Source: a virus. From it: a stretch of 23,805 nucleotides of DNA. Below the pieces are notes generated by a model that was not told the DNA's origin, did no database searches, and saw only the letters and a program-made list of their open reading frames with translations. A program made the translations under genes and the position numbers. Shown piece after piece: positions 1 to 14,182 of the stretch. The stretch spans positions 1 through 23,805 of IMG/VR virus record IMGVR_UViG_3300010885_043251. The stretch is one strand, 5' to 3'. Numbering within the stretch: position 1 is the stretch's first letter; each line of letters begins with the position of its first letter.

Positions 1-100
1 CGCTGGATTTTACGCCGGGCAAAACAAACACATGATTCATGGGATCTGCTTGCTCTGGAGGCAGAGTTGCTTGTTCTGTGATAAACTCTCGAGCTCTCAT
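1..100 (-). CDS. Partial protein with N-terminal MRAREFITE motif (runs off left edge)
   Basis: The ATG lies at 98-100 and overlaps the TGA of the upstream gene (ATGA), and the frame stays open to the window edge. Only about 33 residues are visible. They start MRAREFITEQ and continue through a Pro-rich stretch to VLPGVKS. The mRNA reads AAGGG six bases before the ATG, a good ribosome binding site. The first nine residues nearly repeat the start of the neighbouring 122-aa protein (MRAQEFVTE), also at DNA level. The motif resembles the capsid-targeting peptide of T4 internal head proteins, with an I-x-E site that the prohead protease could cut. That role is inferred from the N terminus only, and the rest of the gene is outside the window. 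Confidence 0.7.
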   Translation of the reverse strand, partial: MRAREFITEQATLPPEQADPMNHVFVLPGVKSS

Positions 101-468
101 CAGTAGCCCTTGAACGCTTCAATAGGACTTGTGGTGTTCACAGCAGGATGTTCTTCTGAATCAAGATCGCCTTTGTTTAGATCTTCGTAATCTGCGCCGG
201 CTGCCTTGTAGGCTTGTTTGAGCATGTTCTGTTCAACTTCGGTATAAGGGCTTGCTGTGCGATTTTTTCCTGCCCAGCTCTTGGCATCCATCTTGATCGG
301 AGCGCCAGATCCGTCAGCCATGGCCACTGCCATCATCACACGATTCAGAGTATAGTCACTGTTGGCTTTTTCACTGTCATGAAACACATTCAGGCCCACC
401 GTGGCGCTTTGATTACGGGTACTTAATTTTCCCTGTGTCATCTCAGTAACAAACTCTTGAGCTCGCAT
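100..468 (-). CDS. Unidentified 122-aa phage protein with MRAQEFVTE N terminus
   Basis: I cannot assign a function. The protein starts MRAQEFVTEM and is followed by a hydrophilic, soluble-looking sequence with no membrane segment. The central part (roughly residues 22-90) contains TVGLNVFHDSEKANSDYTLN and an acidic C-terminal third. From memory, similar sequences occur in other aquatic T4-like phages, sometimes as part of longer proteins, but I could not check this. The start codon overlaps the stop of the upstream 109-aa gene (TAATG), and its own TGA overlaps the next ATG, so the three genes are probably translationally coupled. The V-T-E after the N-terminal motif is close to the T4 prohead protease consensus (L/I)-x-E, so it may be an internal head protein. 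Confidence 0.8.
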   Translation of the reverse strand: MRAQEFVTEMTQGKLSTRNQSATVGLNVFHDSEKANSDYTLNRVMMAVAMADGSGAPIKMDAKSWAGKNRTASPYTEVEQNMLKQAYKAAGADYEDLNKGDLDSEEHPAVNTTSPIEAFKGY

Positions 469-797
469 TAGCCGTTGCCTATGCCGTTGCTGGCTGCGGT
501 AGCAGAGCTGCGTGTGCCAAGTTCTTGAATAGTAACATTGCCGCCCACTACTGTGAGCTTGTTGCCCACGCCAACATAGATGTCTTGACGACTGTTTGAC
601 GGAACAGACACAGCATTGCTGTAGATGTTGCCCACTGCTGTGCCGGCGTTGGCCCAGTTGCCTGTGGCCGGATTCTGATAGGTCAATTGTACTGCTTCAA
701 CCTGGAAAGTCACTGTGTTGCTGCCAGTGCTGATGCGAGCTTTGTCTGTGAACCAGGCCTGTGCTGATGCACTTGTGTATACATTTGCTTGAGGCAT
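468..797 (-). CDS. Unidentified 109-aa beta-rich protein, possible minor virion protein
   Basis: No family is recognised. The sequence is rich in Ser, Thr, Ala, Asn, Gly and Val with alternating hydrophobic residues (for example TVTFQVEAVQLTY and NKLTVVGGNVTIQEL). This is typical of small beta-sandwich decoration or fibre-associated proteins. There is no signal peptide, no cysteine and no transmembrane helix, and the end is a flexible Gly/Ser/Asn tail. The ATG overlaps the stop of the 60-aa gene before it (TAATG), and the TAA overlaps the next start, so it sits in a tightly coupled minus-strand operon. A virion role is inferred from composition and context only. Confidence 0.7.
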   Translation of the reverse strand: MPQANVYTSASAQAWFTDKARISTGSNTVTFQVEAVQLTYQNPATGNWANAGTAVGNIYSNAVSVPSNSRQDIYVGVGNKLTVVGGNVTIQELGTRSSATAASNGIGNG

Positions 798-979
798 TAT
801 TTGCTACCTTCTGGTGGTTGAATTACCACAGGCTGATACAGGTGTGCTGCTTGATACATCACACCGGGAATTTCCACAGGTGTTTGCTTGACCGTGGCAG
901 GTGTAAACGGTGGTGGTACAAAACCACTGGCCTGATTACGTGCCAGGTCAGCTTGAATCTGTTCGTATGATTTCATCAT
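797..979 (-). CDS. Unidentified 60-aa Pro-rich protein
   Basis: This short gene is supported by operon packing rather than homology. A clear AAGGAT lies six bases before the ATG at 977-979, its stop overlaps the next start, and it begins five bases after the end of the 857-aa gene. It starts with two Met codons. The first 15 residues are polar and helical in character (MMKSYEQIQADLARN). The rest is Pro- and Val-rich (VPPPFTPATV, QPVVIQPPEG), suggesting an extended, unstructured tail. MKSYEQI loosely recalls the T4 internal-protein start MKTYQEF, but no (L/I)-x-E cleavage site follows. Function is unknown. Confidence 0.6.
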   Translation of the reverse strand: MMKSYEQIQADLARNQASGFVPPPFTPATVKQTPVEIPGVMYQAAHLYQPVVIQPPEGSK

Positions 980-983
980 GATA

Positions 984-3557
984 TTATCCTTTGTATGCTT
1001 TCCACTGATTGGTCAATGTAAAAATGCTTTCTCGAACTTTTTCCATGTCACCGTCGCCGTCAAGGTCAGCTTGTGTTTTTCCAGCCTCTTTGGCTTTGAG
1101 CACATTGTGAGCAAAAAAATTGCCTTCATCCGTTTTTTCTTCGTCAACTGCTTTTTTGTCAAGGCCAGCAATCTCTCGCATGCGTTGAATGCTTTCACTG
1201 AACTCAGTGTCTGCTTCATCTACCTTGGTTTTTTTGTCGTCAACTGCTTTTTTCATTGGCTCGTCTTTGTCGCCGTCTTTGTCCATGTCCAGGAAGTCAG
1301 GTTTGGCCTTGGCTTCTCTGATGCCGGACATTTCCATCATGCGATGCAAGGCATCTTGTTCTGATTCGGCATAAGAATCAGTACGGTCATGTTGACCAGC
1401 AATCACAGGAATTGTGGTTTGGCCAGTTGACTTGGGTTTGTTCAGGCCACCTGAATATTCAAAGTTGTCTTGTGCTGTTTCGGTGTTGGTTGGATAATCA
1501 GGTGTGTTTTGACTCACCTCATCGTCACCATAGCTTTCGTCCATGGTGTTGCAACCACAGTCGGAGCCACCACACACACTGCATGTTCCCTGTGAACCAG
1601 AGTCACCGCCAAGGCCTGCACTCTTCAGCAACTGAGCCAAGCGCGTGGCATCTTCATCTGTTGCTGTGACTGTTAGGCTGCGTGTAGGGCCATTGCCATC
1701 GTTGTTCATGCTCATGTTCATGCTCATGCTTTCAGCAATCATGCCTTCAAGTTCGCGATTCAGACTGTCGTAAATGCCTTTGCCGAATGTGAACCCACCG
1801 GATCCTTTGGCAGCCTTGGGTGCTGCTGTAGCCACTGAGCCACTAGTGGTTGATTCTTCAACATCTTTTTCTTTGGTTTTCTTGGCTGCTTTTTCTGGCA
1901 GGCCCTTGTGTTTGGTGCTGGCAAAATCTTCTGCGTCACCTTTTTTCATTGTCTTGGCCACCTTGGCAACTTCTTTTGACGCAGGCTTTTCGCCTTTCTT
2001 GGCAGCACTGACCATGCCCATGAAGCGTTGTTGCTTTTTGCTCACTGCTTTTTCAGCAATGGGTTCTTGTTCATCGTCCATGTCGTCTGCTTGATTCTGC
2101 ATGTAGTCATCCACAGCAGTCATCATGCTTTCAATCTTGGCCAACTTGGATTGTACCCATTCTGGCAGGTTGTCATTGTCGCCCAGTATTTTTTCCAGAG
2201 CCTGTGCATGACGCACCACGGTCTTGATAGTGTCCTTGGCCATGTCGCCTTCTTGATCGTATTCGCCTTGATCTTCAGGATCTAGATCATCTTCACCTAC
2301 CATCTTGTGCTTGGTAATTTTTCCAGCAAATGGTTTCAATTTGACATTCTTTTCAAATGCACTGAAGTCTGGCTTCATGACTTCGCCTGTGTCCACTGAT
2401 GCACCTTTCTTGGGGCGACCACGACCACGTGAGCCTTGTCCAGCATCCGCTGCGGCCTGTTTCTTTGTGCGAATTGCCTTAGCATCTTCTTTGTCGCCAT
2501 CATATTCAGTGCCATATGTGCCTTTGTGAACAAAGCTGGTGGGCTTTTGTTTTTCAGGTTGTTTGAAATTTTTGTAGTCAAACGCATTACCAGTGCTGGC
2601 TTCGTCAAATTGAACACTGTCGCCTGCTGAAAATTGTATGCCAGCCAGGCGTTTTGGTAACTTGCCCTTGGCAATAATAAAATCTAGTTCTCTATCAGTT
2701 GGGCCAGCTTGTTCAAGATCATTAGCTAGGTCCTGCATGGCATCATTTTCCCACATGTCATCACCGTACAATGCAGCAATAGCCTCTAGCACTTTATCGT
2801 AATCAATTGAACCTGAGGCTTCGTCCATTTCTTGCTCACGACCACGGCCGCCGCCCAGTGCCTTTTTCATGGCTTCAGCAGCAACGTCGCCCAGCATTTC
2901 GTCAACTTCTTTCTTGGCGCCAGCAATTTTATCAGCAAAAGTAATTTTGTCTTTGGGAGGTGCCAGTGCAGCAAAACTCTTGGCCTTGCCTGGTGACATT
3001 TTTTCTTTGACAGGCTGTCGTGCTCCGCTGGACTTTTGTAAACGGTCTAACAATTCTTCATCGCCAGGTGCCACAAAATCAGCTGCTTTTTTCACACCAC
3101 GAGCCATGCGATCCATGACACCGGGCTTTTGGCCTGTCTTGGCAAAGTCTGGATTCAGTTCCATAGCATGTTGAGTATGTGCGCCTTCGTCTACTTCTGT
3201 GTTGTCATACTTGTCGTACTTGGCACGTACAGGATCAAGAGCCTTGCCCTCACGTCCGGCCTTGGCCAAGGCTTCCATGCCTTGTTTGCCGTATTTTTCG
3301 TAGCCCTTGGCCGCGCGACTCATGCCTTCTTCTTCCAGCTTGCCGGACCGGGCCATCTTGGCATGCACAGCACCTGCCACACGTTCGCCTGCTGCCTTGC
3401 TGCCATATTCTTTGGCAGCTTTGTCAGCCAAGGCTTTGAAACCTGTGGTGGCATTGTTGTGTTTGCCTTCGTCACGCTCGTTCAATTGTTTGTGTGTGAC
3501 TTCAGGTGTGGCACGAATGCTGTCTAGTTTTTTGTTTAGGTCGTAAAAGAAACTCAT
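984..3557 (-). CDS. 857-aa charged low-complexity protein with AT-hook, Cys cluster and D-rich loops; candidate internal head protein
   Basis: Function is unknown. The protein is dominated by Lys, Ala, Glu and Asp and is probably largely disordered. Visible pieces in order: an N-terminal Lys/Gly/Ala-rich section; a more ordered block at about 250-330; an AT-hook-like RGRGRPKK near 376-383; an Asp/Glu-rich helix near 420-490; a module near 504-556 (SKKQQRFMGM to KHKGLPEK) resembling the small DUF3008 family; a block near 606-650 (SLTVTATDEDATRLAQLLK); a Cys cluster CSVCGGSDCGC near 657-669; and two Asp-rich calcium-loop-like motifs, DMDKDGDKDE (about 756) and DLDGDGDMEK (about 830). The short phrases MEMSGIREA and MREIAGL look like a repeated motif. 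The AGAGGAT before the ATG fits the start. Placed after gp4 and gp16, a DNA-associated internal head or scaffold role is plausible but inferred. Confidence 0.8.
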   Translation of the reverse strand: MSFFYDLNKKLDSIRATPEVTHKQLNERDEGKHNNATTGFKALADKAAKEYGSKAAGERVAGAVHAKMARSGKLEEEGMSRAAKGYEKYGKQGMEALAKAGREGKALDPVRAKYDKYDNTEVDEGAHTQHAMELNPDFAKTGQKPGVMDRMARGVKKAADFVAPGDEELLDRLQKSSGARQPVKEKMSPGKAKSFAALAPPKDKITFADKIAGAKKEVDEMLGDVAAEAMKKALGGGRGREQEMDEASGSIDYDKVLEAIAALYGDDMWENDAMQDLANDLEQAGPTDRELDFIIAKGKLPKRLAGIQFSAGDSVQFDEASTGNAFDYKNFKQPEKQKPTSFVHKGTYGTEYDGDKEDAKAIRTKKQAAADAGQGSRGRGRPKKGASVDTGEVMKPDFSAFEKNVKLKPFAGKITKHKMVGEDDLDPEDQGEYDQEGDMAKDTIKTVVRHAQALEKILGDNDNLPEWVQSKLAKIESMMTAVDDYMQNQADDMDDEQEPIAEKAVSKKQQRFMGMVSAAKKGEKPASKEVAKVAKTMKKGDAEDFASTKHKGLPEKAAKKTKEKDVEESTTSGSVATAAPKAAKGSGGFTFGKGIYDSLNRELEGMIAESMSMNMSMNNDGNGPTRSLTVTATDEDATRLAQLLKSAGLGGDSGSQGTCSVCGGSDCGCNTMDESYGDDEVSQNTPDYPTNTETAQDNFEYSGGLNKPKSTGQTTIPVIAGQHDRTDSYAESEQDALHRMMEMSGIREAKAKPDFLDMDKDGDKDEPMKKAVDDKKTKVDEADTEFSESIQRMREIAGLDKKAVDEEKTDEGNFFAHNVLKAKEAGKTQADLDGDGDMEKVRESIFTLTNQWKAYKG

Positions 3558-3562
3558 TTTTG

Positions 3563-4174
3563 TTATCCTCTTGGGTTGGCGCCAGTGGCTGGCTTGGGTT
3601 GACGCTTGATGTTGGTCATTGGGCTTTTGACACCCTGTGCTAATTCGTTTGTGGTTTTTGCTGGTGGTGTTTTTCCTCCAGCCACAGTAAAGTTGCTACG
3701 GTAAGCATTCTTTAACACCACATGATCGTATGGGTCAGCGCCGTAGTCTTTCTTTTGCGCACGTTGATGTGCATCATCTGCAGGATATGTGGGGTCGTCT
3801 AGCAGGTCTTTGTTTTGACTATCAATCTTGGCTGCTTCTTCATCCATGCCTTGTTCATAAGGTGTGGTCATCATGACAATTCTGTTGGGATCCATGCCCA
3901 GCAATTGTGCCAGTTGTTTGATCTGTGGTTCAATAGCTGGGTATCGAAACTCCACATCAACCAGACTCATGGGCTGATTGGGAAAAGCCGGAAAGTCCGG
4001 AACTGCTCGGCGTACTGGTGCAGTTTTGGCGTCAGACATTTTGACAATGTCAAACTGGTTGCACTTGTCTTTGAGCTGTTTAAAAAAGCCTGCGGGCACG
4101 TCGCCTACCACCTTGATACGGTAGTTGTAGGTGCGTTCGCTTTCGGCTAGGTATCTTGCAAATGGTTTTTTCAT
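3563..4174 (-). CDS. Unidentified 203-aa phage protein with MKKPFARYLAE N terminus
   Basis: I do not recognise a named family. The N terminus MKKPFARYLAES resembles the T4 capsid-targeting peptide, with L-A-E as a possible prohead-protease site. Residues about 15-110 look like a small alpha/beta domain (YNYRIKVVGDVP, then LVDVEFRYPAIEPQIKQLAQLLG and RIVMMTTP). The last 90 residues are polar and probably flexible, ending in KRQPKPATGANPRG. An AGGAT lies seven bases before the ATG. An AATAAATA late-promoter-like octamer lies 18 bases before the ATG, overlapping the end of gp16. The next gene starts five bases after its stop, so the two are probably co-expressed late. Confidence 0.75.
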   Translation of the reverse strand: MKKPFARYLAESERTYNYRIKVVGDVPAGFFKQLKDKCNQFDIVKMSDAKTAPVRRAVPDFPAFPNQPMSLVDVEFRYPAIEPQIKQLAQLLGMDPNRIVMMTTPYEQGMDEEAAKIDSQNKDLLDDPTYPADDAHQRAQKKDYGADPYDHVVLKNAYRSNFTVAGGKTPPAKTTNELAQGVKSPMTNIKRQPKPATGANPRG

Positions 4175-4192: not shown

Positions 4193-4200
4193 TATTTATT
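4193..4200 (-). promoter_or_regulatory. Late-promoter-like element for the 203-aa gene
   Basis: The minus strand reads AATAAATA, one mismatch from the consensus, overlapping the end of gp16. It lies 18 bases before the ATG of the 203-aa gene, with AGGAT in the leader, the same layout as at 13286. Confidence 0.5.
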
Positions 4201-4705
4201 CTTTTTCAGCAATTTGGTCTTTACCAAGAATGCGATTCAGCAAATCGTTACGGCTCAAAACCATGCCCTCAGCAGTTTGTGTAGGCGCTGCGCCCGACTC
4301 TATGACCTTGGCATCCAGTGCTTGTTGTTGTTGATCCAGCCGCATTTTTTTCATCTGCAGATCAATCATCCGGAGTTTTTTGTCTAGCTTGGCTGTTTTT
4401 GCTGTGATAGCATGTCCCAGCATGTTGCTGGCTACCCCAAAGATTTCGCTGGCAAAGCGGCTGTCCACCTGCATGCCAAGATCCATTAGATCTTTGTAGC
4501 TGCCCTTGGCCATGTCACTCAGCTCATCCATTTCAGCGTCTGTAGCATCTAGCCCGCGCACTGCTGGAAGGGCATTGTCAACCTTGTCAATGGTGAGATC
4601 AAGTTCTGCTAGTAGTGCTTGGTTGACTGTGATGGCAGGAACTTCAGCGTCTATTTCTGCCGCAGATGGTGGGAGATCAAAGAGCTCTTCAAGTTTTCTT
4701 GTCAT
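4196..4705 (-). CDS. 16: Small terminase subunit, gp16-like
   Basis: In T4, gp16 is the small terminase subunit. It forms a ring that regulates the gp17 packaging motor and helps start DNA packaging. This 169-aa protein matches gp16 in length (T4 gp16 is 164 aa) and layout: an acidic N-terminal tail, two long helices predicted to form a coiled-coil hairpin (about residues 64-130, including SYKDLMDLGMQVDSRFAS and KLRMIDLQMKKMRLDQQQQ), and a polar C-terminal tail. The match is by pattern and memory, not a computed alignment. It follows gp4 by 29 bases. No good ribosome binding site is seen; instead ACTAAATA lies four bases before the ATG. The large terminase gp17, normally adjacent in T4, is absent from this window. 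Confidence 0.72.
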   Translation of the reverse strand: MTRKLEELFDLPPSAAEIDAEVPAITVNQALLAELDLTIDKVDNALPAVRGLDATDAEMDELSDMAKGSYKDLMDLGMQVDSRFASEIFGVASNMLGHAITAKTAKLDKKLRMIDLQMKKMRLDQQQQALDAKVIESGAAPTQTAEGMVLSRNDLLNRILGKDQIAEKE

Positions 4706-4734: not shown

Positions 4735-5169
4735 TTATCGTTTGCTGCCTTGATGAAAGATGTCGTTTTCTGTGATTACTCTAAAGGTCAGCCCTTGTGT
4801 TTTGCACCAGGCGGTGGCCGCAGCCCATTTGGCATAGTTGATTGCTACCACAGTACGATCACGACTGTTCATTTTGCTTTCAATCACACTTTGATTTTTG
4901 GGTTTGATTTCAATCAGTTCAGCTCGCATGGTATTTTCCCTGGTGCGGTAAGTGATCAAAAAGTCCGGAAAGTATCTGTGCATTTTGCCGTCAAGTGGAT
5001 GACGATACGGAATTGCCACGCACTCTGAACCCAATTGCAGCACATTGTCGTTGTTGTCTAGGAATGTCATGAACACCTGTTCCCAGCTGCTGCGCCAGGT
5101 TGGGGGCTTGTTACCTACATATTTTTTTGCATTTCTCACTTGAAAAATGCCTTTTGAAAAGTTAGCCAT
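4735..5169 (-). CDS. 4: Head completion protein gp4 (nuclease-like fold)
   Basis: T4 gp4 (also called gp50/4) completes DNA-filled heads before tail joining. The family has a TnsA/restriction-endonuclease-like core. This 144-aa protein (T4 about 150 aa) has the family layout: a basic N terminus (KGIFQVRNAKKYVGNKP), WRSSWEQVFMTFLDNN, then IPYRHPLDGKMHRYFPDFLI, followed by a strand with ELIEIKPKNQ. The E in SWE, the D in YFPDF and the E-x-K in EIKPK form the PD-(D/E)xK-like set. The rest is helix plus a final strand (WCKTQGLTFRVITE). The ATG at 5167-5169 has TTAGG five bases upstream. It lies between a 119-aa structural-type gene and gp16. This is one of the surest assignments here. Confidence 0.9.
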   Translation of the reverse strand: MANFSKGIFQVRNAKKYVGNKPPTWRSSWEQVFMTFLDNNDNVLQLGSECVAIPYRHPLDGKMHRYFPDFLITYRTRENTMRAELIEIKPKNQSVIESKMNSRDRTVVAINYAKWAAATAWCKTQGLTFRVITENDIFHQGSKR

Positions 5170-5544: not shown

Positions 5545-6687
5545 TTATCTTGTGTTGGTTGGTGGAGTTTGTGGTGTTGGGAAGAACATACCAGTTGGGC
5601 GGCCCGGTACAGATCTCACTGCGCCTGGCAATGACCCTCGAATGGCATTTTTGCCCAGGGCAGTTGCTTCATTCACAGCCAAGCTGGCAATATTCTTGCC
5701 CTTGAATGTGTTGTAGGCCGTGCCGGCTTTTTGTGCTGCACCAATAAGTCCCAGTACGCCACCGCTAGACAAATCTTCCAGGATGCCGCCTCCTGCATCC
5801 AGCAAGCCGCCTTGGCCAAACACAGTGGCTCGAGACCCTGGACGACTGATTGGGCTCAAAGTTTGATCGTAGTGAGCAGGATCAGCAAAGCCTTGCACAT
5901 TGGCGTCAGGGCGCTGATTACCTATAGCACCTGAATAATATTTCACAGTTTCGTACGCTATGGTCATGCTGTTCTGCATAACACCACTGCCTTCGCTGTA
6001 GTTGTATTGGTCGTGACTCCAGTTAGTGATAAGTGGATTGATCAACACATATTCGGCTGTCTTGTGTTGATCCATGCCGTAAATTCTGATGTCTTTGAAA
6101 AAAGGTGGCTTGCCTGACGCCGAGCTTGTGCCATCATTGTAGCTTTCGCCTATATAACCCCAGTCGTTGACATCGCCAATTCTGGTGTCGTTATAGATGT
6201 CTCTGTTGTTGTATCCAAATCCTTTTTGCAAGTTAGCACTGTTACCTGCGCTGCCGTTTTGACTATTGGGTGCTAGATAATCTTGGCTGGGATCTTTGTA
6301 GTAGTAACTGTAGTAGTTGTACCACAGGTTGCGCGAGTTATCGCCGCCGTCGTCGTGAAATGTTAGTGTAACTGGATCATAATTGATCTTGGTCTGTACC
6401 ACTCGTTTGCGATTATACTGATTGAGTGTTTCGGCCGCCACAGTGTATTTTGGAAGATCCACGGTCTTCACAAGATAACTGAGACTGGTAATTTCATTTA
6501 CCCCTGCCAACTGACTCAGCGCAGGTATTTCAGCTGTGTTCAACGTGAAGCTCACGTGAAAGAGGAACTTGAACCTGGGTTTAAGTTCGTATGCGTTGGT
6601 AGTAAAGGTTTTGCTTGCGTGAGTATAATCACGCAAGCTATCCGCTGCGGTGAATCCTTTCCAGAATTCTTGGCCAAATGTTGGCAT
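5545..6687 (-). CDS. Tail-tube-like virion structural protein (gp19/gp48/gp54-type)
   Basis: This 380-aa protein carries a tail-tube-type core. FKFLFHVSF (about residue 40) starts the tube fold. It is followed by LVKTVDLPKYTVAAETLNQY, the sequence NRKRVVQTKINYDPVTLTFH, and later SLINPLITNWSHD-type strands (about 210-260). The Tyr-rich segment LWYNYYSYYYKD lies at about 122-133. The last third (about 280-380) is Gly/Ala-rich and may be flexible. In T4, proteins with this fold beyond gp19 are gp48 and gp54, which start the tube on the baseplate; which one this matches cannot be decided here. It starts next to the gp19 stop (GCATAATAATG), suggesting coupled expression with the tube protein. Confidence 0.8.
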   Translation of the reverse strand: MPTFGQEFWKGFTAADSLRDYTHASKTFTTNAYELKPRFKFLFHVSFTLNTAEIPALSQLAGVNEITSLSYLVKTVDLPKYTVAAETLNQYNRKRVVQTKINYDPVTLTFHDDGGDNSRNLWYNYYSYYYKDPSQDYLAPNSQNGSAGNSANLQKGFGYNNRDIYNDTRIGDVNDWGYIGESYNDGTSSASGKPPFFKDIRIYGMDQHKTAEYVLINPLITNWSHDQYNYSEGSGVMQNSMTIAYETVKYYSGAIGNQRPDANVQGFADPAHYDQTLSPISRPGSRATVFGQGGLLDAGGGILEDLSSGGVLGLIGAAQKAGTAYNTFKGKNIASLAVNEATALGKNAIRGSLPGAVRSVPGRPTGMFFPTPQTPPTNTR

Positions 6688-6689
6688 TA

Positions 6690-7334
6690 TTATGCCCCGG
6701 TGCCAGCACCAGTCACAACGTCGCCAATGGTTCTACCAATCACGCCACCGATACCGCTGGTGTCTAGACTGTTAGGTCCAAGCTGTGCAGCATTATCATA
6801 AGCAATAGTCATATTGACCGTTACACCTTCATTGGTACCATAATTCAATTCGCCGTAGTCAGCGCCTTTCAAGTAGCAACCGTACAATTCCCAGGCTTCA
6901 AGTACCACAGGTGTTGCAGCGCCGTTACCACCGTCTAGTATTTCAATCTTGGTCAGGAACTTGTAGTCGATACCCGAAGCAGCACTGGCCATTTCCAAAA
7001 AGTCCATTTGCTTTTGCATTTGTTCGCCAATCAGTTTGGAAACACTGTTTGATGCATCGTCGCGCACTGAACAAGCAACGTCTGCCCATGAATGACGACC
7101 AGCTAACTTTAGTGTCGAGTTGTAGATCGGCAATGTGATTTCTTCGAATGTCAAGTTGGGTCTAGCAATGCTGACCACTTGTTTGGTTAATTCTGTTGTG
7201 GGTTTTGAAACGCCGAAGTTTTCAAACATCACTCTAAAGCGATATTTGAGTTTGGGCATCAACAGGCCCTGTGCGCTTGCGCTTTGATCGCTAGCTAGTG
7301 GTACTGTCATGCGCTGTAATGATGAAACTGCCAT
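6690..7334 (-). CDS. 19: Tail tube protein gp19
   Basis: gp19 hexamers stack to form the inner tail tube through which DNA passes. This 214-aa protein (T4 163 aa, aquatic relatives somewhat longer) has the expected pattern. The core starts at LKYRFRVMFENFG (about 29-41), followed by TKQVVSIARPNLTFEEITLPIYNS, a loop with the AGRHSW segment, a long helix (ASNSVSKLIGEQMQKQMDFLEMA) and a final sheet with EAWELYGCYLKGADYG and VTVNMTIAYDNA. The ATG has AGGAG seven bases upstream. A late-promoter-like GGTAAATA lies 19 bases upstream, and an intrinsic terminator separates it from gp18. gp19 therefore appears to have its own late promoter. Confidence 0.92.
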   Translation of the reverse strand: MAVSSLQRMTVPLASDQSASAQGLLMPKLKYRFRVMFENFGVSKPTTELTKQVVSIARPNLTFEEITLPIYNSTLKLAGRHSWADVACSVRDDASNSVSKLIGEQMQKQMDFLEMASAASGIDYKFLTKIEILDGGNGAATPVVLEAWELYGCYLKGADYGELNYGTNEGVTVNMTIAYDNAAQLGPNSLDTSGIGGVIGRTIGDVVTGAGTGA

Positions 7335-7353
7335 TTGTAATCTCCTATATGTT

Positions 7354-7361
7354 TATTTACC
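7354..7361 (-). promoter_or_regulatory. Late-promoter-like element for gp19
   Basis: The minus strand reads GGTAAATA, matching the TAAATA core with two mismatches at the front. It lies 19 bases before the gp19 ATG and just after the gp18 terminator, an arrangement that gives gp19 its own promoter. Confidence 0.45.
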
Positions 7362-7363
7362 TG

Positions 7364-7391
7364 AAAAGGTGACTGAAAAAATCAGTCACCT
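7364..7391 (-). terminator. Intrinsic terminator after gp18
   Basis: On the minus strand a perfect 10-bp stem (7367-7376 with 7382-7391, AGGTGACTGA pairing with TCAGTCACCT) with a five-base loop is followed by TTT. It lies between the gp18 stop and the gp19 promoter. The T-tract is short, so read-through is likely. Confidence 0.75.
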
Positions 7392-7400
7392 GTTTCATTA

Positions 7401-10400
7401 TTATACGCCTGCTCCGCCAGCAATTTCGCCGGTGTTCTTGATGCGCAATGGAATGTAAATAAATTCAATTGCCTTGACAGGTTCGATAGCAATATCAACC
7501 CACAGTTCGTTTCTGTCGATTCGAGCAGGAGTATTGTTGCTGCCGTCGCAAACTACCAAGTAGTCATAGATAGCTCGTTTGGCAATCAAGTCAATCATCA
7601 AACTGTTGCAAGTATTAGTGATCTCATTGCGTGTGATTTGATCATTTGGCTCAAACAAGTACAATTTACCAATCTCTTCCAGGCGTCCACGCAAGAAGCA
7701 AATCAGGCGTGCTACATTGATACGATCAAGTGCCGTAGTTGTAGTGGTACTAGTTTTGTTACCAAAGTTGGTGATACCAATACCAGGAATAAACGTAATT
7801 GGGTTGATGTTGCGTTCATACAAGATATCGCGAACACTTTGACTTACGCCAATTTGTTCAAACTCACCTGTCGCAGCATTGATATAACCAATTGCGCTGG
7901 CATTGTCAATCACACCGCGGCGTGTACCAGCTGGTGCAAACCATGGATAGCTGGCAGCGTCACTGCGCAGAATTGTACGAACCATCATGTGGCTTGGTGG
8001 TTGAACAACTGAGTTGCCACCAAGGTCTGTGGTGCGGCAAGACGGATAGAACACACCGCAATAGTTGCTGGTAGCTGAGTTGCCATCTTCTGTGACCAGG
8101 CCAAGTCCAAGATTGTTGGTGGCAAACGCCACCAAGCTGTTGCCATCAGGTCCAAGTCTCATTGGAGTATCACCAACCACAAACAAGGTGTTGTTGCGCT
8201 CGTTGCTGAGTGCAATCATGTTGGGTGTCAGTTCAGGATACGCAGGTGTTGAAATCAAGTTGAATTGATTTTGTTCTTCACGTGCTGCTGTGCTGGTGTC
8301 AATGCCTGCTTTGAGTGCTTGCACAATCAACTGGCGTTGTGCCAGGCGGCCTGACCACATGCTGCCATTGGTTTTGTTACCGCTGGCTGTGAGCCAAGTG
8401 TTGGTGTTCAACAAGTCCCAGTATGTGCCATTGGTTGGTGCAATACCGGCAGTGGTATTTAGAACACAAACATACACAGCATTGTTGTAGTTTACAAAAT
8501 CATTGTACAAGTATGCTGTGGTAGCAGAGTACGCATCGATTGCAAATGCAGTAGATGTAGCATTGAAGTAGTTGTTCTGGAAGCTCTTGACATTGTAACC
8601 TGAACGGCGTGTGTTGAACAACAACATACCTTGTGGATACAGTGCAGGATCTGGAGCATCAACGTCAAGATAGTTGCTGGTCAACAGGCTCACAATGCTT
8701 GGGAACGAGTCTGCCACACAATCTGTGGTACCGTTTGGTGCCCAACGAGCATCTGCAAACAAGATACCGCTTTGTGATACCTGGTCAGTGGTGTCAACTT
8801 CTACCCATTGGTCAGTTCCGCTGACTGCTTGCCAACGATACAGTTTGGGATAGTTTTCAAGATCACTGGTGTCAATCCACAAGTCACCATAGGCCAAGGG
8901 TGATTCTGCTGTGTCAGTTTGTGTGACAGGAGCAGAAGCACTTATGATTGGGCCAGCTGCATTGCACAATGTCAAGTCATAGCCGCGAACATCATTGGTT
9001 ACAAGTTGATAGCCTTGCCAGATTCCATTGTCCTGAATCATGATATCAGCATCACTTACTGAGCTGTAGTACCATAGACGACCAGTTGTAGGATTTTGAT
9101 CTGGCGCTGTATCGCTGGATGTGTATGTGAACAATGGTGTGGTTACAAAATTACTCAATGATATTACATTTGCAGTACTAGAATTCTGTCTTACCTTAGG
9201 TGTGGTTAAATTAAATCCAGCAGCGGTCAGCGGGGTTCCTACAACATTAATTGCTGCAATTGATCCACCTTGACTGTGCGTAAACACAATGTTGCCAGCA
9301 GTGTTGACACTGGCTGACACATAAGGTACATTGGCTGCTGAAACAGCAGCAATGAAGTTAGCCACAGTTCCTGTGCCGCCAATTGTAACAAGACCAGTAT
9401 TGGTAGCCGTTGTACCAGCTTCAGTTGCTATAATATTAAAACTATTGCCTACTGTAAATGCTAGTCCTGTGGGTGTTGTGGTTCCTGTAACTTCTAGCGC
9501 ACCAGTTGCATATCTTTCAAGCAAGTTGAAAGAGAATGTGCTAAGTGGTGTGGTGGAGTAGAGATTTGAATCATACACCGCATATGTGGTGCCGACTGGA
9601 ATGTTTCGGCCGCCACCTGATGGATCTAGACCATAGAGAGCAGTACTATCACCTGCATATACTGGGCAATTTTGTGATACCCAAGCAGCAAGAGCGGTGC
9701 TGTATGATTTGACACTCAGATTCATGCCGTTGTTGGCGCTGCTGATATTTTGCCATACAGAACCTGTAGGGCGTCCGCCATCAGTGTCAGTGGTTCTCCA
9801 ACGTGGTTGTTGATAACTGTATCCAGGCATGTAGTCAGGTGCTGCATATTGACCAGTGGTGATTCCCAGAGCTGTTAACAATGCTGCACCGCTGGTAGGA
9901 CCAGCATCAACTGTGATCAGACCATTGTTGCTGAGGGTTGAGCCATCATTTGCAGCAGTAGAATCAGCATACAAGTACAACTGATTTGACACGTTACGGG
10001 CCGTGACGCCTGTGATAGCAGCTTGATTAATTACTGTTACAAGTCCTGCCACAGTGTTAGTAGCACCAACAGTAATCAAGTTGTCATTGATATACATGGT
10101 TGCACCAATTGTTAGGCTAGTAGGAGCATTGGCGCCTACCAGTGTGGGCCAGGCAGTTTTCCAGCCATTGCTACCAATTTGTACCCAGACGTTTTGATAA
10201 GTTTTGTAGTAACCATAAACATACGGATCAATTGCCACAACTACATAGTCACCAATACTACCATATGATGCCACAGGTGTATTGTCAGCAATAGGATTGG
10301 TGCCGTTGCCGCCTACTACATCTGCAGTGCTGGTGATCACTGTGGGAATGTAATTGGTAAATGTTGCTGTAGTTTGATTCCACTCAAAAATACCCCAGGT

Positions 10401-10826
10401 ACTGATCCCAGAATCCAACCAGAATGTACCATTGGCTGCGTCACCTGTGGGGCGAGTCAAGCTGGCTGTGAGGGCAGTTAAATCAACGTCAGCACGTTGA
10501 ATATACGCACGATTGGTAACACCCAGAGCCGAGTAAGCTGCCAGCAGACCATATTCGTTGAGTTCGTAGCCATTGATTGGAGTGCCTGTTGTGGTGTTGT
10601 AAAAGAACGGTACACCAAATGTGGCAGCCAGATCACGCTGACTAGTAATTAGATACGTTTTGTTGGCGTTGGCTGCAAGGGTACCTGCTGCTACAGTGAC
10701 GCCGTCACTGGATACTTTGTTCTGTGCTGTGGCAATTACAAAGTACGGAACTGTATTGACCGCTGATGGGATATACTGACTCTCGTCAATAACTGTTACT
10801 TCTACGCCGGGGCTAACTAGGGCCAT
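7401..10826 (-). CDS. 18: Tail sheath protein gp18 (enlarged)
   Basis: gp18 forms the contractile sheath around the tail tube. The C-terminal 300 residues are clearly sheath: NNTLFVVGDTPMRLG, then WFAPAGTRRGVIDNA, RDILYERNINPITFIPGIG, ALDRINVARLICFLRGRLEE, and AIEPVKAIEFIYIPLRI near the end. The N terminus MALVSPGVEVTVIDESQY is also typical. I start it at 10826, not at an in-frame ATG 57 bases upstream, because AGGAG (10834-10838) is correctly spaced here and the family starts with this sequence. At 1141 aa it is far longer than T4 gp18 (659). The extra length lies in the middle: two possible flagellin/hook-like inserts (about 232-324 and 457-537) and a carbohydrate-binding-like segment (about 762-811). 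A late promoter lies at 10899-10906 and a terminator follows the gene. Confidence 0.93.
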   Translation of the reverse strand: MALVSPGVEVTVIDESQYIPSAVNTVPYFVIATAQNKVSSDGVTVAAGTLAANANKTYLITSQRDLAATFGVPFFYNTTTGTPINGYELNEYGLLAAYSALGVTNRAYIQRADVDLTALTASLTRPTGDAANGTFWLDSGISTWGIFEWNQTTATFTNYIPTVITSTADVVGGNGTNPIADNTPVASYGSIGDYVVVAIDPYVYGYYKTYQNVWVQIGSNGWKTAWPTLVGANAPTSLTIGATMYINDNLITVGATNTVAGLVTVINQAAITGVTARNVSNQLYLYADSTAANDGSTLSNNGLITVDAGPTSGAALLTALGITTGQYAAPDYMPGYSYQQPRWRTTDTDGGRPTGSVWQNISSANNGMNLSVKSYSTALAAWVSQNCPVYAGDSTALYGLDPSGGGRNIPVGTTYAVYDSNLYSTTPLSTFSFNLLERYATGALEVTGTTTPTGLAFTVGNSFNIIATEAGTTATNTGLVTIGGTGTVANFIAAVSAANVPYVSASVNTAGNIVFTHSQGGSIAAINVVGTPLTAAGFNLTTPKVRQNSSTANVISLSNFVTTPLFTYTSSDTAPDQNPTTGRLWYYSSVSDADIMIQDNGIWQGYQLVTNDVRGYDLTLCNAAGPIISASAPVTQTDTAESPLAYGDLWIDTSDLENYPKLYRWQAVSGTDQWVEVDTTDQVSQSGILFADARWAPNGTTDCVADSFPSIVSLLTSNYLDVDAPDPALYPQGMLLFNTRRSGYNVKSFQNNYFNATSTAFAIDAYSATTAYLYNDFVNYNNAVYVCVLNTTAGIAPTNGTYWDLLNTNTWLTASGNKTNGSMWSGRLAQRQLIVQALKAGIDTSTAAREEQNQFNLISTPAYPELTPNMIALSNERNNTLFVVGDTPMRLGPDGNSLVAFATNNLGLGLVTEDGNSATSNYCGVFYPSCRTTDLGGNSVVQPPSHMMVRTILRSDAASYPWFAPAGTRRGVIDNASAIGYINAATGEFEQIGVSQSVRDILYERNINPITFIPGIGITNFGNKTSTTTTTALDRINVARLICFLRGRLEEIGKLYLFEPNDQITRNEITNTCNSLMIDLIAKRAIYDYLVVCDGSNNTPARIDRNELWVDIAIEPVKAIEFIYIPLRIKNTGEIAGGAGV

Positions 10827-10898
10827 TGTTATTCTCCTAAAATTTTTATCATCTATTTGCTTGCAGATACCTGATGTACCCATGCAATCGCATACTGA

Positions 10899-13285: not shown

Positions 13286-13293
13286 TATTTATT
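13286..13293 (-). promoter_or_regulatory. Late-promoter-like element for gp13-like gene
   Basis: The minus strand reads AATAAATA, one mismatch from TATAAATA. It lies 17 bases before the ATG, with GGAG in the leader. Expression of gp13 at late times from this box would separate it from the early-type unit upstream. Confidence 0.5.
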
Positions 13294-14182
13294 TGATTGT
13301 GCCTTTGCGTACCGGAGAGATTGCAAAGGTTTTCTTGATTACTGGGCAAAACTTGCACTGTGCAATTGGATTGTCTAGATTTGCCAGAAATTCTTCATGA
13401 TATTCACTAAAGTTATCTACTGACAAGGGCCGGTAAGAATTCAATAGTAGTCGATCCTGATCACTGATATCCAGGTGGTGTTGTTGATCAAACTCGGGTA
13501 GCAGGGCCGCAGGGCCGCACTTGTACAATTTTCCCCGTATAAAATGATAGGATTTGTACAGTACAAACGTGCAGGCATTGTGTGCCAGTTGCGGATCATT
13601 ATCAAACAAGGTGTAACGCCCTGATGCGGATGTTTGCACAGTTGATGTGTCAAACCGATTTTGATAGTAGACATTTATGAACACACCATTGTGATCAGAG
13701 TACTGATAATCTGTGCCCCATAAGTCGGGACGGTGGGTGTTTTGCTGCACCGGTCCGCTCAAAAACTCATGAATGTTTTGTTGCAGCATTTCTAGATCAT
13801 CTAGATTGTGCAGGCTTATGGCAATGCTATTCCTTATGCCATTTCTGGGACGAGCATGGGCAATGGCATCATATAGGCCTTTGACTTGATTTAGGCGGGT
13901 GCCATTGGTCAAAATTTGCACGGCGATCCCAAACGCATCATTGAGTCCGTGTACCCAAGACACAATGTCTGGATTCAACAAGGGCTCGCCACCTAGTATT
14001 GTGATTGCTTTTAGGTCAATCAGTTTGGCCCATTGCTGATACTGAGCCTCATGATCACTCCAGCGTTGCCAGCCTTTGAAATCAAAATTGTTGAATCGGT
14101 TGCATTGTTCACAAGTTAGATTGCAAACATTAGTGATGTAGACCTCTATTTTTTTAAACACAGGTCTATGGGGATTATTCAT
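13289..14182 (-). CDS. Radical SAM enzyme with C-terminal Cys-rich (SPASM-like) region
   Basis: This 297-aa protein has the radical SAM cluster motif CxxxCxxC (C20, C24, C27, in TNVCNLTCEQCN). It also has the GGEP motif at 64-67 and a TNGT strand at about 90-93. Four further cysteines at C204, C222, C276 and C279 (the last pair in CKFC) are spaced like an auxiliary cluster of SPASM or twitch type. Such enzymes mostly modify peptides or other proteins; the substrate here is unknown. It follows the 381-aa gene by seven bases, with no clear ribosome binding site, so it probably shares the sigma70-like promoter upstream. GGTAAATA lies four bases before the ATG, but this is partly formed by the previous stop codon. 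No obvious precursor peptide gene was seen nearby. Confidence 0.85.
   Translation of the reverse strand: MNNPHRPVFKKIEVYITNVCNLTCEQCNRFNNFDFKGWQRWSDHEAQYQQWAKLIDLKAITILGGEPLLNPDIVSWVHGLNDAFGIAVQILTNGTRLNQVKGLYDAIAHARPRNGIRNSIAISLHNLDDLEMLQQNIHEFLSGPVQQNTHRPDLWGTDYQYSDHNGVFINVYYQNRFDTSTVQTSASGRYTLFDNDPQLAHNACTFVLYKSYHFIRGKLYKCGPAALLPEFDQQHHLDISDQDRLLLNSYRPLSVDNFSEYHEEFLANLDNPIAQCKFCPVIKKTFAISPVRKGTIK

Follow-up and report, generated by a model that had tools for sequence, protein, structure and literature searches.

Capsid-targeting-like leader peptides on diverse proteins of a T4-related lake phage and its uncultured relatives

Introduction

The internal proteins IPII and IPIII of bacteriophage T4 (translated from AF158101) both open with MKTYQEFIAEA, and for IPIII the first ten residues are enough for packaging into the head (PMC9026906). 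According to the available part of the same review, residues 4 and 7 of this leader serve targeting, residues 8 and 10 serve processing, and the prohead protease gp21 cleaves after L/I-x-E. The leader is also presented there as a possible evolutionary route by which T4-like phages take in various proteins. Enzymes recur in the virions of cultured cyanophages, and the authors of the S-CREM2 study, as far as its accessible text goes, left the true packaging of these enzymes open (PMC10665884).

The stretch of DNA analysed here (the window) is a whole IMG/VR record of 23,805 bases with T4-like structural genes. An earlier note made from the sequence had pointed to three N termini in its left region that resemble the T4 peptide and suggested that, if the resemblance holds, the proteins encoded there are packed inside the head and possibly injected with the DNA.

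Results

Gene organization of the window

The window phage is a T4-related lake phage with T4-like tail genes in the window; T4-type head genes were found in its close relatives. All three N termini were recovered at the genes named in the earlier note, on the minus strand, which is also the strand of all features given in this section. The gene at positions 2-100 encodes MRAREFITE (leader codons 74-100) followed by 24 residues; after 33 codons the contig edge cuts its reading frame, and in relatives the protein has about 129 amino acids. Its paralogue at 100-468 encodes a 122-amino acid protein that opens with MRAQEFVTE (leader codons 442-468). Between these leader genes and a gene for a modular protein of 857 amino acids (984-3557) lie two small proteins of 109 and 60 amino acids that do not carry a leader (468-979). 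The third N terminus, MKKPFARYLAE, is a T4-type leader and starts a protein of 203 amino acids (3563-4174, leader codons 4142-4174). Further along we found a 169-amino acid protein without leader (4196-4705), which belongs to phrog_16202 with no function assigned there, and a head closure protein (4735-5169; phrog_218, Pfam family of TnsA-like nuclease fold) in a T4-like context. Two tail-tube proteins and the tail sheath were assigned by PHROGs at 5545-10883.

Three other places of the window deserve mention. At 5545-7334 two neighbouring genes both have tail-tube family matches, and one of them encodes 380 amino acids. The protein encoded at 13289-14182, amid structural genes, has a CxxxxCxxC-type cysteine motif near its start and looks radical-SAM-like by eye. 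An open-ended gene at the right contig edge (22974-23804) contains near-identical tandem repeats (GANVNATLFTGTTVSVTGNITGGNVLG).

For the 122- and 203-amino acid proteins, neither Pfam nor PHROGs gave matches, and a tblastn search of a phage collection including the T4 record found none. Their structure models were set aside because the mean pLDDT was too low (55 and 57, respectively), and no solved relatives were found. Searches for RNA families and for tRNAs were also negative.

Comparison with the T4 leader

The claimed resemblance to the T4 peptide held for MKKPFARYLAE, which has the full T4 spacing, and was only partial for MRAxEF[IV]xE, which differs from the T4 leader itself. The aromatic residues at positions 4 and 7 of MKTYQEFIAE are matched in spacing by 98 of the 108 homologues of the 203-amino acid protein. 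The MRA leader falls short of the T4 leader by one residue and has no aromatic residue at T4 position 4, and the T4-type motif was present in none of the 117 homologues of the 122-amino acid protein, which counts against a head-targeting function. It shares with T4 the F at P4 and the E at P5, so that the stretch from P5 to P1 is EFIAE in T4, compared with EFVTE or EFITE in the window. Since the 203-amino acid protein's leader fits all four T4 positions for targeting and processing and the MRA leader fits three, we propose targeting to the scaffold core, cutting at [ILVM]xE and delivery for these proteins.

The ending in I/V/L-x-E, which the earlier note had stressed, is well kept. Counting sites that end at residues 8-13, we found [ILVMF]xE in 117/117 homologues of the 122-amino acid protein and in 105/108 homologues of the 203-amino acid protein. 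The search with the former gave 79 loci; for the latter, 497 candidate stretches were confirmed and 80 kept.

Leader boundary and internal cleavage-like sites

Conservation of the leader is at the protein level and ends sharply at E. In 30 of 30 aligned homologues of the 122-amino acid protein E9 is invariant, and the glutamate is kept even where the length or the residues of the leader are altered (MRASEFISAQLME in L065, MKINDIIVE in L077). At the DNA level, the two MRA leaders of the window had been described as nearly identical over about 27 bases; they share 21 of 27 (78%), which makes this wording slightly too strong. Outside the leader the identity falls to 3/27 for the next and 8/27 for the preceding 27 bases. 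When 56 pairs of adjacent leader genes from the window and its relatives were compared, the mean identity was 75% for the leader, 25% for the next 27 bases and 27% for the previous 27 bases.

Modules that follow a leader were also found inside other, longer proteins, right behind [ILVM]xE. For modules chosen by eye (NFADGK and close variants), the preceding residue was E in 31/31 distinct contexts. In a test with modules that had not been chosen, every protein lacking a leader was searched for matches to leader bodies; subjects with the join at most 20 residues from the start (56) or with leader-like sequence just upstream (13) were excluded, and the 58 of 127 subjects kept gave 55 distinct junctions in 22 groups. 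Here, E occupied P1 in 36 junctions (65%, background 6.9%), and the full [ILVMF]xE stood exactly at the join in 34 of the 55, its density in the same proteins being 2.0%. Hydrophobic residues peaked at P3 (62% vs 22%). The full site was present at one or more junctions in 13 of the 22 groups, and several others aligned 2-4 residues off the site.

The 857-amino acid protein contains 23 [ILVMF]xE sites compared with 13.9 in shuffled sequences, and only 0.5% of the shuffles reached 23. In an alignment of the window protein with 39 homologues that have an intact start (of 67 hits), the glutamates of these sites were conserved to 75% and other glutamates to 45%; LNE27 and IAE609 were present in 39/39 homologues, VDE220 in 37/39 and MDE674 in 36/39. 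As the same site separates modules inside longer proteins, one precursor could yield several head peptides, and the site pattern suggests that the 857-amino acid gene is likely to encode such a precursor.

The leader might alternatively be an uncut docking peptide for the scaffold or the capsid, with [ILV]xE merely forming part of a binding helix. Targeting and cutting are indeed separable in T4 because an aspartate at position 10 stops processing and spares targeting, as stated in the available part of the review (PMC9026906). An uncut peptide accounts poorly for the exact end of conservation at E, for the persistence of E when the leader changes its length (L065) and for [ILVM]xE in front of internal modules that lack any leader, and we regard this explanation as unlikely.

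Distribution of the leader and the proteins behind it

Aligning the N termini of neighbouring and related proteins, as the earlier note had recommended, uncovered a conserved leader class with the nine-residue consensus M[KR]AxEF[ILV]xE. In four large relatives of 300-353 kb (G003, G004, G005, G007), the strict pattern M[KR]Ax[ED]F[ILVM]xE begins 19 of the 1885 called genes, where residue frequencies predict 0.0007, and it was seen at none of the 8282 methionines inside proteins. Similarly, the first locus set contained 123 distinct carriers among 3538 distinct called proteins, and none of 12,343 methionines located more than 80 residues inside matched the leader. IMG/VR was scanned for the R form and for the K form by means of DNA patterns, and each scan gave at least 120 stretches; among the matches listed, those of the R form numbered 99 in 80 loci, 19 of which held two. 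In L398 and L437 the motif is no N terminus because it is preceded by an open frame longer than 350 codons. A second N-terminal class, MRDL[LI]N[LI]LDNxLxE[SA], was seen on proteins of 525-564 amino acids (G003:218089, G005:12686, G007:165251); it likewise closes with a hydrophobic-x-E site and is possibly a further leader.

The leader is shared by unrelated bodies. When it was removed before comparison, 409 sampled carriers fell into about 56 BLAST groups, a grouping that may split remote homologues and in which two large groups account for 313 of the 409; one of the 99 R-type carriers was too short for clustering and was left out. Pfam recognized 12 families among 71 members, including an ADP-ribosyltransferase (L299, E 9.5e-13), Phage_lysozyme2 with LysM (L292), an iron/manganese superoxide dismutase (L327) and sigma-70 region 4 (L467). 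L245 encodes a leader protein with a match to a chitinase-class lysozyme family. From their sequences we read further bodies as kinase-like, acetyltransferase-like, metallopeptidase-like and ligase-like; PHROGs gave one match to a kinase among the 71 members, and DUF6267 was the sole match of the ligase-like bodies. PADLOC gave one match (MzaA) for the 71 leader proteins. Leader genes occur in runs, for instance eight within about 7 kb of L380 (4664-11752). In the lysozyme-like protein L245:2992-3612 and in the similar protein s77 of L275, a twin-arginine-like stretch (DRRGFL...) directly follows the leader. Pfam TAT_signal scores of L245-type proteins were only below the cut-off; if the leader were removed, an export signal might become N-terminal.

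A duplication within the window, suggested in the earlier note, is supported because the 122-amino acid family and the neighbouring family of about 129 amino acids are paralogous over their length (profile comparison 97.7%, E 2e-12, a score to which the shared leader contributes). The paralogous gene pair and the gene runs would also suit the explanation that leaders are mere traces of duplication, or a copied translation-start cassette, with no role in packaging. Such copying is at odds with the synonymous codon variation (104 distinct 27-mers among 117 homologues of the 122-amino acid protein), with the unconserved bases before the start (27%) and with bodies that belong to 56 groups, so that we consider it very unlikely.

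Virion proteins of cultured cyanophages

A comparison with virion proteins identified by mass spectrometry in cultured cyanophages turned out positive as far as the published lists are accessible: modules of the 857-amino acid protein and of leader carriers match virion proteins. In S-CREM2, ORF136 and ORF137 are located between the genes for the small and the large terminase subunit, and both were detected in virions according to the available Table 3 (PMC10665884). A module of ORF137 is common to nine leader carriers (75% identity over 96 residues), one of ORF160 is common to two, and residues 746-768 of the 857-amino acid protein match ORF111 (74% over 23 residues). ORF137, ORF160, ORF111 and ORF208 are all included in this table (PMC10665884). 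Carriers also match ORF208 as well as ORF87, ORF169 and ORF65, which are outside the table as available; of the six S-CREM2 proteins with a match to leader bodies, three were thus undetected in virions, and this counts against packaging.

For S-SCSM1, matches to the 857-amino acid protein at E values up to 0.01 were confined to ORF93 and ORF92, and leader bodies matched ORF29 alone; all three are labelled as virion proteins in the record. The DUF3008-like module of the 857-amino acid protein (residues 504-563, window positions 1869-2048, minus strand; Pfam DUF3008 below the cut-off) is 69% identical over 61 residues to ORF93, a separate small virion protein. It starts just after IAE502, and the match in ORF93 begins at residue 3. 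The motif KPDFLDMDKDGDKDEPMKKA (residues 748-771, window positions 1245-1316, minus strand) is common to S-SCSM1 ORF92 and S-CREM2 ORF111, both virion-detected in the available lists.

We then asked how often virion proteins start with a T4-type leader (aromatic residues at P7 and P4, hydrophobic P3, E at P1). In S-CREM2, this motif was present in 4/28 detected proteins of non-structural or unknown type versus 1/167 undetected proteins (p 0.0016), judged by the available virion table; ORF85, which crossed a piece boundary, was left out. With all 51 detected proteins the p-value was 0.011, a relaxed motif gave 0.0065 and 0.056, and earlier, looser motifs gave 0.03 to 0.10. Because several motif versions were tried, the smallest p-value is to be discounted. 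The four detected leader proteins are a SAM hydrolase, a kinase, a cytidylyltransferase and ORF136; in the accessible text the authors considered that regulatory proteins of this sort might be abundant proteins that were carried over (PMC10665884). In S-SCSM1, the same test was non-significant (1/19 vs 1/246, p 0.14, the background being our own gene calls, which are distinct from those of the record). The sole hit among its virion proteins was an NMN adenylyltransferase starting with MKSFLQFLKE, which the available part of the paper lists as virion protein (PMC9602691). For this phage 47 virion-labelled features were used and ORF227 was left out (piece boundary); the accessible text of the paper gives 45 (PMC9602691).

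S-SCSM1 ORF30 (MK867354:44215-44535) has a perfect T4-type leader, MKTFKQFMSE, and no virion label; it occupies the same slot between the terminase genes as ORF136/ORF137 of S-CREM2. The virion-detected S-CREM2 ORF12 (OR473000:7704-10313, minus strand), annotated as a Cas9-like nuclease, contains the leader-like sequence FASFMAE about 19 residues past its annotated start, and this start codon may be wrong.

The leader could instead send its proteins to another address in the infected cell, such as a phage compartment or a host partner, and bodies like sigma-70 region 4 and superoxide dismutase would also make sense there. The close match to a T4 peptide that targets to the head and the detection of shared modules in virions, as the available lists give it, speak against such an address, which appears highly improbable to us. 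Chance similarity of short motifs, conceivable for the very short L/I-x-E, a loose form of which lies near the start of 30 of the 167 S-CREM2 proteins undetected in the accessible table, is refuted by the 19 full leaders at gene starts where 0.0007 were expected.

Protease and head genes in the relatives

A gp21-type protease, for which the earlier note had asked to look in the rest of the genome, was not found within the 23.8-kb record (Pfam Peptidase_S77) and was present in 12 of 19 large relatives. In four genomes its gene is arranged with those for portal, scaffold and major capsid protein (gp23) in the order of T4. G004 has Portal_T4, Peptidase_S77, Gp23 and Terminase_6N, and its 203-amino acid, 857-amino acid-type and leader genes are located a short way upstream of the gene for the large terminase subunit. 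This genome was the positive control of the Pfam search for the portal, which replaced a tblastn search without positive control. Among leader contigs of at least 60 kb, Peptidase_S77 was found in 13 of 41 and gp23 in 14 of 41, and all 13 are among those 14. By size, the protease was present in 11/12 R-type contigs of at least 120 kb and in 2/5 of K type.

Peptidase_S77 was not found in 7 of the 19 relatives and 28 of the 41 leader contigs, most of which are fragments. Two observations count against the protease argument: G006 (343 kb) gave no match for protease, gp23 or portal, and 3 of 50 random contigs also carry Peptidase_S77. The enrichment in leader contigs (13/41, at least 60 kb) over random contigs (3/50, 9.6-127 kb) was dropped as proof because the two sets were not length-matched. 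A Pfam search for gp19 in the large contigs was not used; it gave no match anywhere, G004 included. In one 155-kb leader contig only a short piece of gp23 was seen (G051:68363-68452), and this gene may be interrupted or very divergent.

Discussion

Taken together, the leader class, Peptidase_S77 in relatives and the modules matched to virion proteins in the available lists support the suggestion that proteins of the left region are packed in the head. We consider it very probable that the leaders represent T4-type capsid targeting, greatly expanded, with gp21-type cutting and head cargo. According to this model, the leader would draw its protein into the scaffold core during head assembly, and a gp21-type protease would cut after the E of [ILV]xE and free the body inside the head. 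By analogy with T4, the freed body would stay with the DNA and probably enter the next cell. The short variant M[KR]AxEF[ILV]xE would have been attached to a wide range of proteins, whose genes often lie side by side, and in longer proteins such as the 857-amino acid one the same site would split modules, giving several head peptides per precursor. Core targeting and cutting are strongly suggested by the leader and site sequences, and delivery with the DNA into the next cell is what the T4 analogy would predict. The binding to the core, the cleavage, the injection and the roles of the individual bodies are all inferred.

On a wider scale, we lean towards the reading that a large uncultured T4-like group uses the capsid-targeting peptide as a general loading code, by which dozens of interchangeable proteins and modules would be packed singly or as cleavable strings and delivered with the genome. 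Candidate cargo of this code comprises ADP-ribosyltransferase, superoxide dismutase, a sigma-factor domain, lysozymes, and kinase-like and metallopeptidase-like proteins. If this is true, a nine-letter peptide predicts the head cargo of many uncultured phages from sequence alone, unannotated proteins become a testable list of early-acting effectors, and new cargo tags for phage heads are at hand. T4-type packaging would then serve widely for delivery and would not be peculiar to a handful of T4 proteins, and it would offer an explanation for the enzymes recurrent in cyanophage virions.

The MRAxEF leader and cargo modules separated by [ILV]xE were not described in the literature searched, a body without preprints and with few subscription journals, and the available parts of the S-CREM2 and S-SCSM1 papers make no mention of the leaders (PMC10665884, PMC9602691). 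These two cyanophages resemble the window phage in that enzymes listed for their virions in the accessible tables carry T4-type leaders (MKNFSSFLTE, MKRFDAFLTE, MKDFDSFLEE, MKSFLQFLKE), and in modules that they share with the 857-amino acid protein and with leader proteins. In contrast, the MRAxEF form was not seen among the S-CREM2 virion proteins given in the available list. The ejection proteins and prohead protease of SPN3US and phiKZ offer a more distant parallel: according to the accessible part of the paper, many head proteins are ejected, cutting occurs after the E of a three-residue motif, and the first 15 residues of two paralogues are identical (PMC5694885). However, their motif is A-x-E and the propeptides are mostly far longer than those of T4 (PMC5694885). 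The closest system is that of T4 IPII and IPIII with gp21, which shares an N-terminal leader of about ten residues with an EF[ILV]xE end on several unrelated bodies and, in relatives of the window phage, a gp21-type protease and the T4 head gene order; the leader of the 203-amino acid protein also spaces its aromatic and hydrophobic residues as T4 does. Unlike the T4 leader, the MRA form lacks one residue and the aromatic at position 4. In T4 the leader is found on few proteins, whereas the MRA form heads about 56 sampled sequence groups in gene runs, and in the group of the window phage the site also separates modules inside proteins.
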